DNA of 64,000 nucleotides from an uncultured Latescibacterota bacterium. GTDB taxonomy: Bacteria > Latescibacterota > UBA2968. Location: assembly GCA_951812755.1 (NCBI GenBank), contig OX638329.1, positions 4,906,522 through 4,970,521 on the forward strand, read 5' to 3'. The notes below the pieces were generated by a model. That model made no database searches. It was not told where the DNA came from and saw only the letters and a list, made by a program, of their open reading frames with translations. Both the position numbers and the translations under genes were made by a program. Below, piece after piece: positions 32,500 to 40,326 of the stretch. Numbering within the stretch: position 1 is the stretch's first letter; each line of letters starts with the position of its first letter.

Positions 32500-33369
32500 A
32501 TGGCACACATTCAAGACACCTTACAAACACCACCACAAACCACCGCGCTATTGATCTGGCAGCGATTGCGCAAAAACCGCCTCTCCCTTGTGGGTAGTAT
32601 ATTGATCGGCGGCTTTTTGTTCCTGGCATTCGCAGCACCATTAATCGCCCCCGCCGATCCAATGGCGCAGGCACTCTACAATCGCTTGTCGCCCCCAACG
32701 CTCGAACATCCATTCGGCACAGATGATTTTGGCCGAGACATATTGAGCCGCGTCATCTATGGCGCGCGGATTTCCTTACGAGTCGGAGTATTCGCCGTAC
32801 TAATCGCCCTTATACTGGGCACCTGCATTGGGGTCGTCGCGGGCTATTGGGGGGGATGGATAGATCAAATATTGATGCGTATGATGGACCTGCTACTCGC
32901 CTTTCCGAGCATATTGCTCGCAATCGGCATCGTGGCTATCCTGGGACCCGGCCTGGAAAATGCCATGTTGGCCGTCGGCATTGTGGCCATGCCGCAATAT
33001 GCACGCCTGATTCGCGCGTCCGTCTTAACCGTGCGAGAAACCGATTATGTCATGGCCGCACGCGCCCTGGGAGCATCCGATTGGCGCATACTATGCGTAG
33101 CTGTCTTGCCCAATTGTCTCGCCCCATTGATCGTCCAGGCAACATTGGGATTGGCAACCGCAATCCTCGACGCTGCAGGATTGAGTTTTCTCGGCCTGGG
33201 CGCGCAACCCCCCACTCCCGAATGGGGAGCAATGTTGAGCCAGGGACGCGAACTGATTGTGCGCGCGCCCTGGGTACTCACCTTTCCCGGCGGAGCGATC
33301 TTTTTCACAGTACTGGCATTTAATCTGGTCGGCGATGGTCTGCGAGACGCGCTGGATCCAAAGGCTTAA
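32500..33369 (+). CDS. ABC transporter permease, DppC-like
   Basis: A 289-residue permease, second of the pair. It has an N-terminal tail, then RKNRLSLVGSILIGGFLFLAFAAPLIAP, PFGTDDFGRDILSRVIYGARISLRVG (family hallmark), and the coupling loop RASVLTVRETDYVMAARALGASDWRILCVAVLPN. DppC-type proteins pair with DppB-type ones as heterodimers. The stop codon shares bases with that of the convergent M16 gene (a TTAA at 33366-33369), so the two transcripts end face to face with no room for a separate terminator. Confidence 0.94.
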   Translation: MAHIQDTLQTPPQTTALLIWQRLRKNRLSLVGSILIGGFLFLAFAAPLIAPADPMAQALYNRLSPPTLEHPFGTDDFGRDILSRVIYGARISLRVGVFAVLIALILGTCIGVVAGYWGGWIDQILMRMMDLLLAFPSILLAIGIVAILGPGLENAMLAVGIVAMPQYARLIRASVLTVRETDYVMAARALGASDWRILCVAVLPNCLAPLIVQATLGLATAILDAAGLSFLGLGAQPPTPEWGAMLSQGRELIVRAPWVLTFPGGAIFFTVLAFNLVGDGLRDALDPKA

Positions 33370-34601
33370 TTCAACTCTGCCATCGGACCGAGTGCGACAA
33401 GCGCGGGATCCGCATCAAGAGGATATTGTTCGAGATAATCGGCAATGCGTTCTGGCGTGACGGCATCGATCTCCGCGCGTTCTTCCTCGAGCGTTTTGAG
33501 TGGTGTATTAGTGCTCAGGCTACCCACAATTTGAGAAAAGCGAGAAAGACCGTTTTCCCCACTGCAAATAATACCCGTCGCCTGTTTGGTCTTGGCGCGC
33601 TGAAGCGCGTCGCTATCAATACCGTTCTTTAAATCCGCCATTTCGCGCCGCACAATATCGAGAACCTGAGACACATTTTGCGGATCCACGGACAGATAAA
33701 CGTAAAAAAGCCCCGCATCACTAAAATTGATATACTCTGCCGACGCTTCATCAGCCAGACCCTCTTGAATAACAGACCAGTAGAGCCGGCTATTTGTCGA
33801 TGCGCCCAAATAAACAGAAAGCAGATCCGCAGTAGCGGCATGATCATCGGAAGATGGCGGCGCGGGAAGCGCGAGCGCGATATGTTCGCGCGCCACACCA
33901 TCGCGTTGCACAACGCGGTTTGAAGCGTGAAAAGTCGGGATAGATTGCGCCCGACCATTATCAGACACCTGCCAGTCTCCGCAATGTGCTTCAACAGCGC
34001 GAATAATTTCATCGCGATCAAACGCGCCTGTAATGACAAACGTGAGATTGTTGGGACCATAGCGCCGCTGGTGATATTCCGCCATCAAATCACGGGTAAT
34101 GGACTTCACCGTATCCTCTGTACCCAACACACTCTGCCCTAAGGGATGATCGCCAAAAGCCTCTTGAATGAGATCGTCGATAATAAGCGCGTCGGGCTGG
34201 TCGTGATACATCGCAATCTCTTCGAGAATGACCTTCTTCTCCATATCAAACTCGTCCGATGGCAAATTGGCGCGCATCATATCGCTGAGAATCTCGATAG
34301 AATCCGTCGCCCGATCACTTTGCACCCAGTGAAAATAGGCTGTACCTTCCCACCAGGTATAGGCATTCCACATCGCGCCCAAATCATCGACATCGAGCGA
34401 AAGTTGCCGCCAGTCGCGCCTGGGCGTCCCCTTGAAACACATGTGTTCGAGAAAATGTGAAATCCCCAAAAGGTCTGAAGCTTCATCGCGCGATCCCGTT
34501 TGGGCAAAAAAGCCCAGCGCAACCGAACGAATGCGCGGAATAGTTTCAAAAACAAGCGTGAGGCCATTGTCGAGAGTATGCGTGGAAAAGGGTGAAGACA
34601 T
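33366..34601 (-). CDS. M16 family zinc metallopeptidase (active-type subunit)
   Basis: A 411-residue M16B peptidase. The inverted zinc motif HxxEH is intact at His49-Glu52-His53 (HFLEHMCFKGT), and a distal Glu in KKVILEEIAMYHDQPD completes the site. The C-terminal half has NSRLYWSVIQEGLADEASAEY, the usual second-domain block. GGAG lies before the ATG. It is followed upstream on the same strand by a PhyH gene and then a second M16-type gene whose zinc site is destroyed; bacterial M16B enzymes often need such a partner. A role in processing small peptides in the periplasm or cytoplasm is not resolvable; no signal peptide was seen. Confidence 0.93.
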   Translation of the reverse strand: MSSPFSTHTLDNGLTLVFETIPRIRSVALGFFAQTGSRDEASDLLGISHFLEHMCFKGTPRRDWRQLSLDVDDLGAMWNAYTWWEGTAYFHWVQSDRATDSIEILSDMMRANLPSDEFDMEKKVILEEIAMYHDQPDALIIDDLIQEAFGDHPLGQSVLGTEDTVKSITRDLMAEYHQRRYGPNNLTFVITGAFDRDEIIRAVEAHCGDWQVSDNGRAQSIPTFHASNRVVQRDGVAREHIALALPAPPSSDDHAATADLLSVYLGASTNSRLYWSVIQEGLADEASAEYINFSDAGLFYVYLSVDPQNVSQVLDIVRREMADLKNGIDSDALQRAKTKQATGIICSGENGLSRFSQIVGSLSTNTPLKTLEEERAEIDAVTPERIADYLEQYPLDADPALVALGPMAELN

Positions 34602-34615
34602 GAGTTGCTCCGCAG

Positions 34616-34654
34616 GAATTAAAAATTGAGAATTAAAATTAAGAATTGGGAGTG
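34616..34654. repeat. Heptamer-like tandem repeat (AATTAAA/AATTGAG)
   Basis: Degenerate AATT-words with about 7-bp spacing between the M16 and PhyH genes; same family as 12015-12040. Confidence 0.6.
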
Positions 34655-34703
34655 CGAATCAGGTGAAGTGTGACGTGTGGAACGGTTAATTCCAGCCGCC
34701 TTT

Positions 34704-35567
34704 TTACAGATTCTTCGCCATTGCAATCGCTTCGTGCTCGGGCAGATAGGGCACATCAGTGCGATCCCAACTGCGCCTGCCGGCGACACAGTGAATACCC
34801 ATCAGTTGCCGTTTTTGGGGCGTATCGGCCCAATTGACAATGCTTTGTGGCGGTGGACTCGCGATCCACTTTTTCACGAAAAAGGGCATATAGCCATAAA
34901 TAACGATGCGCCGATCCATCGCACTGGTATTGGCACATCCCGTATGCCAGCAGACCACATTCCACAGCACGGCATCGCCTGCATTGAGAGTCATCTTCTT
35001 CATATTGGGCATGGTTTCCAGGGCATCTCTCGAATATTCTTCTTTGGGCGGATAATCCGGATTTGTGTGTGTACCAGGTACCAGTGAAAAGCATCCCATG
35101 TTTTCGGTCTGATCGTCGATAAAATAAAAAACCTTAATCTTGAGCGTATATTGCGGATGTGTCCAGGGCGGCCAGTCTCTGTGCCAGGACGTATGGGCAG
35201 CCGTGCCTGCATGGTGATTGTGATAGAGCATTTCCATCGCCTGATAGTCCGGGCCGACGATATTCTCGACATAGGGAATAACACTGGGATTATTGGCCAG
35301 ATCGAGAATGGTCTCATCTGTGTCGAAATCCGGGCGAATAGTGTGCGCGTACGGCCCATTGCCATAGCCATTACGGAACTTGCCGAGCCGAAGCTCTTCT
35401 TCCCGCTCTGCGAGCATTTCCGACTCGCGGCGTTCAAAAGCCCGCCGCACCCGATCCAGACCAATGGGTTCAATAGCGTTTTTAATCACAATATATCCAT
35501 TGTCATCGTAAAAAGCGCGCTCCTCATCGGTGGGTGTCGAATATTGTATTGCATCGATCATTGCCAT
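34704..35567 (-). CDS. Phytanoyl-CoA dioxygenase (PhyH) family protein
   Basis: A 287-residue Fe(II)/2-oxoglutarate dioxygenase. FYDDNGYIVIKNAIEPIGLDRVRRAFE is the N-terminal block. The iron ligands are HRDW (HxD) and CWHTGC (distal His), with Arg in DRRIVIYGYMPF for 2-oxoglutarate. The ATG at 35567 was preferred over the much longer frame to 35939 because AGGAG lies before it and the extra segment overlaps the neighbouring M16 gene. It stands between two M16 peptidase genes on the same strand, with 37 and 102 base gaps. Substrate unknown. Confidence 0.92.
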   Translation of the reverse strand: MAMIDAIQYSTPTDEERAFYDDNGYIVIKNAIEPIGLDRVRRAFERRESEMLAEREEELRLGKFRNGYGNGPYAHTIRPDFDTDETILDLANNPSVIPYVENIVGPDYQAMEMLYHNHHAGTAAHTSWHRDWPPWTHPQYTLKIKVFYFIDDQTENMGCFSLVPGTHTNPDYPPKEEYSRDALETMPNMKKMTLNAGDAVLWNVVCWHTGCANTSAMDRRIVIYGYMPFFVKKWIASPPPQSIVNWADTPQKRQLMGIHCVAGRRSWDRTDVPYLPEHEAIAMAKNL

Positions 35568-35604
35568 AAATTGCTCCTGTGAGAACTGGGTGAACCTCTT
35601 ACCT

Positions 35605-36843
35605 CTAACGACCTGTCTCCAGCGGTCGAGGACCCAAAACCAGTAATGTACCAGGTCTTGGAGGAAAAGTTTCAATATATTGCGGAATTTGATCGAGGGT
35701 AACGGCATCAATGCCAGCGGCAATTTCGTCAATCGTTCGCACGCGGCCCTCGAGAAACAAGTCTTCGATGATACCGCCAGCGCGGCCCTCGGGCAAATCG
35801 CCAATGGTAAAAAGGCGGCCCTTGAGTACTGTCTTGGCCCGAATGAGTTCTTCAGTGGTGACATCGCGGCGCAATCGCGCAAGCTCCGACTGGCAAACAT
35901 CCAGGGTCTCCTGAGCGCGATCAGCAGTGGTACCTGCATAAACAGCCATCAGACCGCCGCCGCGGTATGCCTGATAAAAAGCCGACACACTATACGCCAG
36001 GCCGCGTTTTTCGCGGACCTCTGTAAATAATCGGCTCGATCCGCCGCCGGCAAGAATGGCAATGGCGAGTTGACCCGCGTAATAGAGGTCGTGACCTCTT
36101 GGAACACCACAAGAAAGCAGACAAATATGGGCTTGTTCCGATGGCTTTTCGTGATGTACACTGCGGTCGGCAACAGAAATGGGATGGACTCCCTCGCTGT
36201 CCGGTGATTCGCCTATCCACCCGCCAAAAACATCGCCAATAGTCTCGATCACAGTTTCCGCATCCAGACCGCCTGCAACCCCAATGAGCAAATGGGCCGG
36301 CCTACAATGTGCATCCCAATGGCGGCGAACGCCCGCAGGTGTAATAGCCGATACCGTATCGGGTTCGCCGAGGGGGATTCTGCCCATCGGTGAGCCAAGC
36401 CCCGCCTTATAGGTCATATACATGGCCTGTTGTATGGGGTTGTCCTCCATGCGTTTGAGTTCCTCAAGAGTGATGGTCTTGGCAATCTCGACCTGGTCAC
36501 TGGGAAAAGACGCACTGCGAAAAAGTTCGGCATAAAGTTCAAGTGCGGGTTTGAATTTGTCGGGCAGGACTTGCGCGAGAAAAGATGTATGTTCGACAGA
36601 GGTCGAAGAACTGCGCCTTATCCCAAGACCGTCAAAAGCATCAAATATAGCGCGTGCGTCATGCCTGGGCGTACCCTTAAAAAGAACATCTTCTGAAATG
36701 CGCGTAATGCCCAATCTGTCGTTGGGATCGTCTTTCGCACCAAAAATAAAACGAAATGAAACAACAAGCGATTGCGCGCCGGGCATGGGTTCGGCCACCA
36801 CGCGAATGCCGTTGTCGAGAGTATAAATTTGTGGCTCAGACAT
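35605..36843 (-). CDS. M16 family peptidase-like protein with destroyed zinc motif
   Basis: A 412-residue M16 homologue. At the position of the HxxEH motif the sequence reads RISED (Arg48, Glu51, Asp52), so both zinc histidines are lost while the fold and the C-terminal GGGSSRLFTEVREKRGLAYSVSAFY block remain. This is the pattern of the non-catalytic subunit of M16B heterodimers, where it supplies the Arg/Tyr pair that grips the substrate. The ATG at 36843 follows GAGG by seven bases; the longer frame adds only 15 residues. It is probably partner to the intact M16 gene at 33366, with a PhyH gene between them. Confidence 0.9.
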   Translation of the reverse strand: MSEPQIYTLDNGIRVVAEPMPGAQSLVVSFRFIFGAKDDPNDRLGITRISEDVLFKGTPRHDARAIFDAFDGLGIRRSSSTSVEHTSFLAQVLPDKFKPALELYAELFRSASFPSDQVEIAKTITLEELKRMEDNPIQQAMYMTYKAGLGSPMGRIPLGEPDTVSAITPAGVRRHWDAHCRPAHLLIGVAGGLDAETVIETIGDVFGGWIGESPDSEGVHPISVADRSVHHEKPSEQAHICLLSCGVPRGHDLYYAGQLAIAILAGGGSSRLFTEVREKRGLAYSVSAFYQAYRGGGLMAVYAGTTADRAQETLDVCQSELARLRRDVTTEELIRAKTVLKGRLFTIGDLPEGRAGGIIEDLFLEGRVRTIDEIAAGIDAVTLDQIPQYIETFPPRPGTLLVLGPRPLETGR

Positions 36844-37030
36844 TGTGGTCCTCACATAAAATTGTAGGAGCAGTGTCTCTGTGATCAATGCAAGGGCGAT
36901 ACTTCAGCGCTCGCCCAATTGGTTTTCATGTAATAACATGAGCATATATTGTCAATACATTATTGTGACATATGCGATCTTCAACGCGGTTCGGGCTTAT
37001 ATCTTTTTACTCGTCATCTTCTCGTAACTC

Positions 37031-38090: not shown

Positions 38091-38119
38091 TTGACAGCCC
38101 GAATGGGGTTGGCTACCTT
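38091..38119 (+). promoter_or_regulatory. Promoter of the riboswitch-controlled dap operon
   Basis: TTGACA at 38091-38096, a 17-base spacer and TACCTT at 38114-38119. Transcription would begin near 38126, just before the riboswitch. Confidence 0.65.
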
Positions 38120-38128
38120 TCCGTTCCG

Positions 38129-38315
38129 CAAGGGTAGAGGCGCGAGCGATCATCAGTATGCGGCACAAGAGGCGAAACGGGATACTGTTCCACTGTGCCG
38201 ACCAAAAGGGATCGTTCGCCGAAGTCCTGACCTGTTTCGCCGCAGAGCAGGGCTGGTTCAGTGGATAATATCTGCTGAACTGTCACGGGAAAAGTTTCCG
38301 TGGAGTGCTCTCTTG
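38129..38315 (+). ncRNA. Lysine riboswitch (L box)
   Basis: Conserved L-box parts appear in order: GTAGAGGCGCGAG (38135-38147), AGTATGC, GACCAAAAGGGATCG then CGCCGAAGTCC (about 38197-38228), and the closing CTGTCACGGG...CGTGGAGTGCTCTCT (38278-38313). The outer GTAGAG and CTCTCT strands form P1. Lysine binding would stabilise it. It lies directly between a good promoter and a terminator hairpin in front of dapA, so a transcription-attenuation mechanism that turns the operon off at high lysine is expected. This also supports the identity of the next two genes. Confidence 0.93.
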
Positions 38316-38339
38316 TTCGCGAGATTTTCTGCTGTGCTT

Positions 38340-38379
38340 AGCGTCTGGCGATACCCTTGGAAAGCCGGCGCTTTTTTTT
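38340..38379 (+). terminator. Riboswitch-controlled terminator before dapA
   Basis: AGCGTCTGGC pairs with GCCGGCGCT (one bulge and a GU pair), followed by eight T, 28 bases before the dapA start. It should form when lysine is bound. Confidence 0.85.
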
Positions 38380-38406
38380 AGCAAAGTGCAGAAACTGGAG
38401 GTTTTT

Positions 38407-39435
38407 ATGTTAGAAGGATGTCATACAGCGTTAATCACACCCCTGACTGCTGACCAGGCCCTGGACCAGGACGGTCTGGAAAAACTGGTAGCATTTCAGA
38501 TTTCTGAAGGGATTGATGGCCTTTTGGCCTGCGGCACGACGGCTGAGAGTCCAACCCTGAGCAGTGATGAACAAAGTTTGATTACGCGCGTGGTGTGCAG
38601 CCAGGCCAGAGAGCAGTGCCGTGCCATTGGGGGGGCGGGCAGCAACTCGACAGCAAAAACCTTAAAAGCGGCCGAATACGCCGCGCAAGTGGGTGCGGAC
38701 TCCATCCTGCTCGTCGATCCCTATTACAACGGGCCGAGTTCTCTGGAAATCCGCAAAGAATACGTCGAACCCGTGGCCCGTGCATTTCCCGAATTGGACA
38801 TGATCCCCTACGTCATACCCGGTCGGTCCGGCACGAAATTGCTCCCGGAAGATCTCGGCGTCTTGTCTTCCGAATATAAAAATGTGAATACCGTAAAAGA
38901 AGCCACAGGCGATCTGGACAACATGGCGCGCACACGCGAATGTTGTGGCGATGCGTTTTCGATCATGTCTGGTGACGACGACAAAACTTATGACATGATG
39001 ACCATCGGCCAGATTGACGCCGCGGGCGTAATCAGTGTAATTTCCAATGTGGCACCCGGTCCTGTGACAAAAATGGTACACGCTCTCCAAAGCGGGAATA
39101 TGAACGAAGCGGACCGTCTGCACGCCGCATTAAAGCCCTTATTTGGGATGGTCGGCGTTGTGTCTGAAGAAAACACACCTTATGGTGTGACAGAAGTCAA
39201 GGCGCGCAATCCATTGCCGGTAAAAACCCTGATGAATATTTTGGGCATGCCAGCCGGGCCGTGCCGCCAGCCATTGGGAAAAATGAATCGCGCCGGACTG
39301 GACATCGTACTGGGCATTGCCCGCGAAGTACAGGTCAATAGCCCAGAGGTATTTGCACCCGTAGCGTCATTTTTTGGTACAGACATAGCGCAACGCCTGA
39401 ACGATGATTCTGCACTGGAAGGACTGGTGTATTGA
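38407..39435 (+). CDS. dapA: 4-hydroxy-tetrahydrodipicolinate synthase family protein (DapA)
   Basis: First enzyme of lysine/DAP synthesis: pyruvate plus aspartate semialdehyde to 4-hydroxy-tetrahydrodipicolinate. HTALITPLT opens the barrel; GTTAESPTLS is the binding-site block; the Schiff-base lysine is in NTVKEATGD near residue 164; PYVIPGRSGT matches the loop after the catalytic Tyr with an atypical VIP order. GGAGG stands before the ATG. At 342 residues it is some 50 longer than usual DapA, with a C-terminal extension. The family includes other aldolases, but the lysine riboswitch upstream and dapB downstream settle the role well. Confidence 0.9.
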   Translation: MLEGCHTALITPLTADQALDQDGLEKLVAFQISEGIDGLLACGTTAESPTLSSDEQSLITRVVCSQAREQCRAIGGAGSNSTAKTLKAAEYAAQVGADSILLVDPYYNGPSSLEIRKEYVEPVARAFPELDMIPYVIPGRSGTKLLPEDLGVLSSEYKNVNTVKEATGDLDNMARTRECCGDAFSIMSGDDDKTYDMMTIGQIDAAGVISVISNVAPGPVTKMVHALQSGNMNEADRLHAALKPLFGMVGVVSEENTPYGVTEVKARNPLPVKTLMNILGMPAGPCRQPLGKMNRAGLDIVLGIAREVQVNSPEVFAPVASFFGTDIAQRLNDDSALEGLVY

Positions 39436-39437
39436 TC

Positions 39438-39503
39438 AGTAGGTGCGGGTTGAACTGGCCTGAGAGACGGCCAGTTGTACCCCGTTCGAAACCCGCACCT
39501 ACT
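39438..39503. repeat. Nested long palindrome between dapA and dapB (copy 2 of GGCCAGTT family)
   Basis: An outer 14-bp perfect inverted pair, AGTAGGTGCGGGTT (39438-39451) and AACCCGCACCTACT (39490-39503), encloses an inner AACTGGCC/GGCCAGTT pair (39453-39476). It begins three bases after the dapA stop and ends 16 bases before dapB. No T run follows, so it looks like a dispersed repeat or mRNA-stabilising hairpin and not a terminator. Confidence 0.85.
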
Positions 39504-39519
39504 ATTTTGGGGAGCGATT

Positions 39520-40326
39520 ATGATTAAGGTGGGTATCTGTGGTATTGCCGGGCGGATGGGACAGCGAATTTCTCATCTGACCCTTGAAGCCGAAGAACTG
39601 GATTTGGGTGGTGGTGTCGAGTTTCCAGGTCATCCCGTAATTGGAAAAGACATTGGCGAAGTCATAGGCATTCCTCCCAAAGGCATATCTGTAGTGGATA
39701 CTGTCGAGGCGATGACGGACAATGTCGATGTGATCACGGCATTCACAGCGCCCCCCGACCCGACAGTTGTCGCAGCAGAAATAGCGGGACGCGCTGGTGT
39801 GCCGATGGTCATTGGCACAACGGGGTTGTCGCCTGATCAGGTAGAGACCATGACACATGCCCTCAAAAATGTCGCCTGTGTATTCGCGCCCAATTTCAGC
39901 GTAGGGGTAACAATATTAGTACAACTCGTAGAAGAAGCCGCGCGCATTCTTGGCGGCGATTACGATGCAGAAATTGTCGAAGCGCACCACCGGTTTAAAA
40001 CCGATGCGCCTTCGGGAACGGCGTATGCACTGGCCGAAGCCGCAGCAAGGGGATTGAATCGCAACTTGCAAGAAGTAGGTGTATATGGTCGCTATGGCGA
40101 TACGGGCGAGCGGACACGCGAAGAAATCGGCGTACACGCCATTCGCGCCGGCGATATTGTCGGCGAACACACAATCATGTTTGGGGGCATTGGAGAAACC
40201 ATCGAACTCGTCCATCGCGCTCAAAGTCGCGATACATTCGCCTCCGGCGTGATTCGGGCCATCCCCTTTGCCGCTGGAGCCACCCCGGGGATGTATGACA
40301 TGCGCGATGTACTGGGGTTGAAGTGA
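39520..40326 (+). CDS. dapB: 4-hydroxy-tetrahydrodipicolinate reductase
   Basis: Second step of the diaminopimelate pathway, NAD(P)H-dependent reduction. IKVGICGIAGRMGQRI is the nucleotide site; the substrate-binding block EAHHRFKTDAPSGTA contains the catalytic His and Lys; GVHAIRAGDIVGEHTIMFGG and the C-terminal DMRDVLGL are family-typical. A 268-residue length is normal. The ATG at 39520 has GGGGAG six bases before it. It follows dapA by 84 bases that hold a long palindrome, so it may be in the same riboswitch-controlled transcript. The product feeds both lysine and MurE (meso-DAP). Confidence 0.95.
   Translation: MIKVGICGIAGRMGQRISHLTLEAEELDLGGGVEFPGHPVIGKDIGEVIGIPPKGISVVDTVEAMTDNVDVITAFTAPPDPTVVAAEIAGRAGVPMVIGTTGLSPDQVETMTHALKNVACVFAPNFSVGVTILVQLVEEAARILGGDYDAEIVEAHHRFKTDAPSGTAYALAEAAARGLNRNLQEVGVYGRYGDTGERTREEIGVHAIRAGDIVGEHTIMFGGIGETIELVHRAQSRDTFASGVIRAIPFAAGATPGMYDMRDVLGLK

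Follow-up and report, generated by a model that had tools for sequence, protein, structure and literature searches.

The lysine riboswitch (L box) is known from the leader of Bacillus subtilis lysC, in which a five-helix aptamer, an alternative helix and an intrinsic terminator are associated with lysine-pathway genes, and the terminator hairpin of which is described as including the antiterminator 3' strand (PMC5836843). A 2017 survey of 2785 complete genomes (PMC5584792) covered lysine riboswitches in Firmicutes and Gammaproteobacteria, as well as in some Tenericutes, Actinobacteria, Fusobacteria, Thermotogae, Acidobacteria and Beta-/Deltaproteobacteria; Latescibacterota are not named. In that survey, a lysine riboswitch governs dapA-dapB in Clostridium cellulolyticum and C. 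cellulovorans, and another governs asd-lysC in the acidobacterium Candidatus Solibacter usitatus. Both dapA-dapB and asd are already known as targets of this riboswitch in other phyla.

We analyzed a 64-kb stretch of DNA (hereafter the window) from an uncultured Latescibacterota bacterium. Its dapA-dapB leader resembles that of B. subtilis lysC in having a five-helix aptamer, an alternative helix, an intrinsic terminator and lysine-pathway genes. As in C. cellulolyticum and C. cellulovorans, a single lysine riboswitch precedes the dapA-dapB pair. In contrast to the clostridial units, this one belongs to another phylum, encodes a DapA of 342 aa and is accompanied by another riboswitch ahead of a solitary asd, while relatives of this genome insert a PEP carboxykinase (PEPCK) gene between dapA and dapB. 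Like Solibacter asd-lysC, the second copy would place asd under lysine control outside the Firmicutes; unlike Solibacter, asd stands alone here as the only one in the genome (TIGR00978), and lysC lies elsewhere without a riboswitch. The original prediction suggested that riboswitch control of dapA-dapB might be undocumented in this lineage, and we found no paper describing lysine riboswitches in Latescibacterota among open-licence publications. Automatic annotation of the deposited MAGs may already include the riboswitch. The features discussed below are as follows.

38091-38119, + strand: promoter, with TTGACA (38091-38096), a 17-base spacer and TACCTT (38114-38119); from sequence and conservation in relatives
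38127-38318, + strand: lysine riboswitch aptamer (L box, RF00168) with five helices; from the Rfam match and a fold z of -5.4
38129-38136, + strand: 5' strand of helix P1 (CAAGGGUA); from complementarity, forced folds and recurrence in relatives
38308-38315, + strand: 3' strand of P1 (CUCUCUUG); from the Rfam alignment and sequence reading
38340-38379, + strand: intrinsic terminator, with arms 38340-38349 and 38363-38372 and T tract 38372-38379 (eight T); from a hairpin energy of -13.9 kcal/mol and conservation
38352-38359, + strand: putative antiterminator partner (UACCCUUG) in the terminator loop; from complementarity to the P1 5' strand
38407-39435, + strand: dapA, 4-hydroxy-tetrahydrodipicolinate synthase, 342 aa, ATG start; from TIGR00674, PF00701 and 2yxg
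39438-39503, + strand: REP-like palindrome with 14-bp perfect arms (39438-39451 and 39490-39503) and an inner inverted repeat
39520-40326, + strand: dapB, 4-hydroxy-tetrahydrodipicolinate reductase, 268 aa, ATG start; from TIGR00036, PF01113 and PF05173
40430-42337, + strand: possible third gene of the unit, 635 aa, with a transaldolase-type domain; from PF00923 at 46 bits (weak)
G000:C1:3545209-3545387, elsewhere in the genome: second lysine riboswitch, before asd

The proposed L-box aptamer was borne out by an Rfam search. RF00168 (Lysine) matched 38127-38318 of the + strand over its full model (1-182) with 90.6 bits (E 1.5e-22), compared to a gathering score of 30, and was the sole Rfam match at the gathering threshold in the window. 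The aptamer folds 5.4 standard deviations below dinucleotide shuffles. Helices P1-P5 and the conserved core (AGAGG, AGUA, GCCGAAG, CUGG, CUGUCA and GUGGAGUGCU) are present in the Rfam alignment, where the core letters match and a few pairs are flagged as non-standard. Both copies in the genome occupy a 5'-leader position upstream of lysine-synthesis genes (dapA-dapB for this copy, asd for the second). Judged by its sequence, the element is a genuine lysine riboswitch, ordinary in itself, with a predicted response to lysine.

The predicted sigma70 promoter held for its 17-base spacing and its perfect -35 element, but not for its -10 element, which matches TATAAT at just 3 of 6 positions. A strict sigma70 scan of the window did not list this weak -10 promoter. 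Despite this, we accept it because the arrangement TTGAC(A/C)-17-TAnnnT is conserved upstream of every dapA riboswitch in the phylum (23/23). The expected RNA start (~38126) nearly coincides with the start of the aptamer. The terminator was likewise missed by a strict scan, the loop limit of which (8 nt) is shorter than the loop of this hairpin, and by itself the hairpin is unremarkable compared to shuffles (z -1.4). We accept it because a hairpin followed by a T tract lies 3' of 44/44 homologous aptamers, in agreement with the predicted terminator bearing eight T.

It is very likely that, at high lysine levels, the L box represses dapA-dapB by terminating transcription, with a lysine response again predicted. 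In the proposed mechanism, RNA polymerase would start at ~38126. When lysine is low, the P1 5' strand would pair with 38352-38359 within the would-be terminator loop; with this pairing in place the terminator could not close, and dapA-dapB would be transcribed. When lysine is bound, P1 would be kept within the aptamer, allowing the hairpin (38340-38372) to close ahead of eight U, and transcription would end after ~250 nt. This arrangement differs from that of B. subtilis lysC (PMC5836843), as the alternative helix here would consist of the P1 5' strand and the terminator loop.

Most of the 44 leaders show complementarity between the P1 5' strand and the terminator loop, with helices of 7-15 bp. 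In 27 of the 44, the alternative helix reached p<=0.05 compared to shuffled tails and was located in the loop. That of the window is 8 bp long (p 0.033) and shorter than those in asd leaders, and strong alternative helices were absent from three asd leaders and some dapA leaders. Computationally, P1 and an alternative helix tied to the terminator are mutually exclusive, a relation that is weak in a minority of leaders. Within the genus the pairing covaries, albeit over few independent events: in asd leaders a P1 strand reading CAAGAGUA faces UACUCU, and in dapA leaders one reading CAAGGGUA faces UACCCU. At minimum energy the window leader adopts the antiterminator form (-107.5 kcal/mol vs -99.4 kcal/mol when aptamer and tail are folded separately), these energies applying to RNA in isolation, with neither ligand nor cotranscriptional folding taken into account; lysine binding would lock P1 and so reverse the preference. 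For several other leaders the minimum-energy form consists of aptamer plus terminator. An antiterminator formed by the P1 3' strand and the 5' arm of the terminator was considered and rejected, as none of the leaders supported it beyond chance (p>=0.14).

Certain lysine riboswitches work at the level of translation, and a good Shine-Dalgarno sequence (GGAGG) lies immediately 5' of dapA. This element might accordingly act by opening or closing the dapA ribosome binding site, not by termination. We regard this as improbable, since the eight-T terminator is interposed between aptamer and Shine-Dalgarno, every one of the 44 leaders has a hairpin with a T tract, and the partner of P1 sits in the terminator loop and not at the Shine-Dalgarno. 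Termination control is instead backed by the Rfam score of the aptamer, by a promoter, terminator and alternative pairing that recur in relatives, by the identities of the genes and by conservation in 22 genomes. That both switched units (dapA-dapB and asd) encode lysine-pathway steps counts for a lysine switch. From these data we infer lysine binding, lysine-responsive termination and a transcript shared by dapA and dapB.

We examined the distribution of the riboswitch across 64 genomes of the phylum and found it in 24, namely every member of families f1-f3 (22 genomes) and two genomes from family f9; the sister family f4 had none (0/25). Within f1-f3, a copy precedes dapA in 21/22 genomes and asd in 21/22. 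The genome missing the asd copy (G037) has a contig that begins 199 bases upstream of asd, placing the expected site at a contig edge. The two f9 genomes carry the riboswitch before a DapA gene of canonical length, the product of which is 34-36% identical to the window DapA. Thus, the same switch and operon order go with different DapA lineages.

One complete relative, G038 (OY282377.1, a single-contig chromosome), has a dapA (87% identical) with neither aptamer nor terminator before it. Its promoter (CTTGACAG..GTTGGCTACCTT) and Shine-Dalgarno are kept, only ~35 bases apart (L037:4916-5003), and its asd riboswitch is intact. A permissive Rfam search of 12 loci upstream of dapA or asd returned no riboswitch remnants in f4, in other riboswitch-free genomes or at G038 dapA. 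Lysine-blind dapA expression is predicted for G038, and its deletion allows a natural comparison between a switched and an unswitched version of this promoter. G038 and family f4 also indicate that the riboswitch is dispensable, as would be expected if the window copy were decayed or non-functional and merely retained by descent, leaving dapA-dapB effectively constitutive. This is marginally less probable still than translational control, because the promoter, alternative helix and terminator, along with almost every conserved aptamer position, have been retained across divergent genera. A functional, terminating switch remains the preferred reading.

We next consider the genes that it would control. 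DapA scored 211.2 bits against TIGR00674, a narrow pass over the cut-off of 206.15, and matched PF00701. The original prediction took the leader to support the dapA assignment despite a mixed family and a length above normal, and this assignment was sustained. Of eight genomic homologues in the DHDPS family, only the window DapA exceeded the TIGR00674 cut-off. Its best solved relative is Methanocaldococcus jannaschii DHDPS (2yxg), alignment to which revealed that the active-site segments GTTxESPTL, PYYN, Y...PGRSG and VKEA(TG) are kept, and that the extra length stems from an insertion near residues 250-265 together with a C-terminal extension. Close relatives of this DapA outside the phylum were found on two Bathyarchaeota contigs (54-56% identity). 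The eight superfamily members, the narrow TIGR00674 margin and the 342-aa length might suggest a different DHDPS/NAL superfamily enzyme, with the riboswitch controlling a catabolic aldolase, but this is the least probable of the alternatives, as the protein is the sole member over TIGR00674, falls far under the NanA, KdgD and HpaI cut-offs, aligns at the motifs above (including VKEATG) with DHDPS enzymes, and is encoded beside dapB by a gene carrying a lysine riboswitch. The dapB assignment was supported by score (TIGR00036, 278.7 bits compared to a cut-off of 122), with both domains (PF01113 and PF05173) present. In those f1 and f2 relatives whose loci extend that far, the gene order is conserved, with the 635-aa gene after dapB. 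Elsewhere in the window, on the minus strand (33366-36888), two M16-peptidase-like genes (YfmH-like and YfmF-like) flank a PhyH-type oxygenase, the reading frame of which overlaps that of one peptidase as listed.

The original description of a clean 320-base leader calls for one qualification. Aptamer, promoter and terminator are as described, but a 14-bp palindrome that is repeated in the genome intervenes between dapA and dapB. It belongs to a REP-like family with 41 matches in the genome, and the dapA-dapB gap measures ~85 nt in the window vs 24 nt in most close relatives, which lack the palindrome; in G034 and G037 this position is occupied by a less elaborate palindrome. The palindrome may trim, stabilise or partly terminate the transcript, and could thereby partly uncouple dapB.

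The 6.5-Mb genome contains two lysine riboswitches in total, the second of which precedes the sole asd. Asd scored 333.1 bits compared to a TIGR00978 cut-off of 301.2 and is of the archaeal/eukaryal type. A search of the genome for a second asd yielded only weak PF01118 matches, the strongest of which (48 bits) was argC-like but below the argC cut-off. Since the genome has just these two copies, lysC and a homoserine dehydrogenase gene, both located elsewhere, are without a riboswitch. A lysA-like gene fell under its cut-off (263.6 compared to 297.9 bits).

In ten riboswitch-bearing relatives, a PEPCK gene lies between dapA and dapB, mostly ~20-150 nt from dapA. The enzyme is of the ATP type in two (G018 and G026) and of the GTP type in eight (G019-G024, G011 and G012), with that of G011 and G012 representing a divergent GTP type ~32% identical to the PEPCK of G019-G024. 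The ATP-type gene of G018 is frame-shifted near its 3' end, reflecting either an assembly error or decay. In all ten genomes the operon PEPCK was the sole PEPCK found. In the genus of the window, dapA and dapB are directly adjacent and the sole PEPCK (ATP type) lies elsewhere. The PEPCK genes found in f4 and f7 are on contigs other than that of dapA or, where the genome is a single contig (G049 and G050), about a megabase from it. On balance, we favor the view that the riboswitch operon of this phylum has a recurring slot for PEPCK between dapA and dapB, filled by differing enzyme types according to lineage, such that lysine would set PEP-oxaloacetate flux; the genus of the window would then represent a shortened form without PEPCK, one member of which also lacks the dapA riboswitch. 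Supply of oxaloacetate for aspartate is a plausible reason for the link. A search of the open-licence literature for lysine riboswitches together with PEP carboxykinase returned no relevant paper.

Taken together, these findings add Latescibacterota, in which we found no such regulation described, to the phyla with lysine-riboswitch control. The link to PEPCK in relatives, likewise without a description that we could find, is the part that deserves specialist attention: the unusual point is that an enzyme of central metabolism, and the sole PEPCK of these genomes, resides within a lysine-riboswitch operon. The two-switch arrangement, with one copy at asd and the other at dapA-dapB, has been maintained across three families. 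The product of asd also feeds threonine and methionine synthesis, a branch that lysine would likewise restrict were asd switched.
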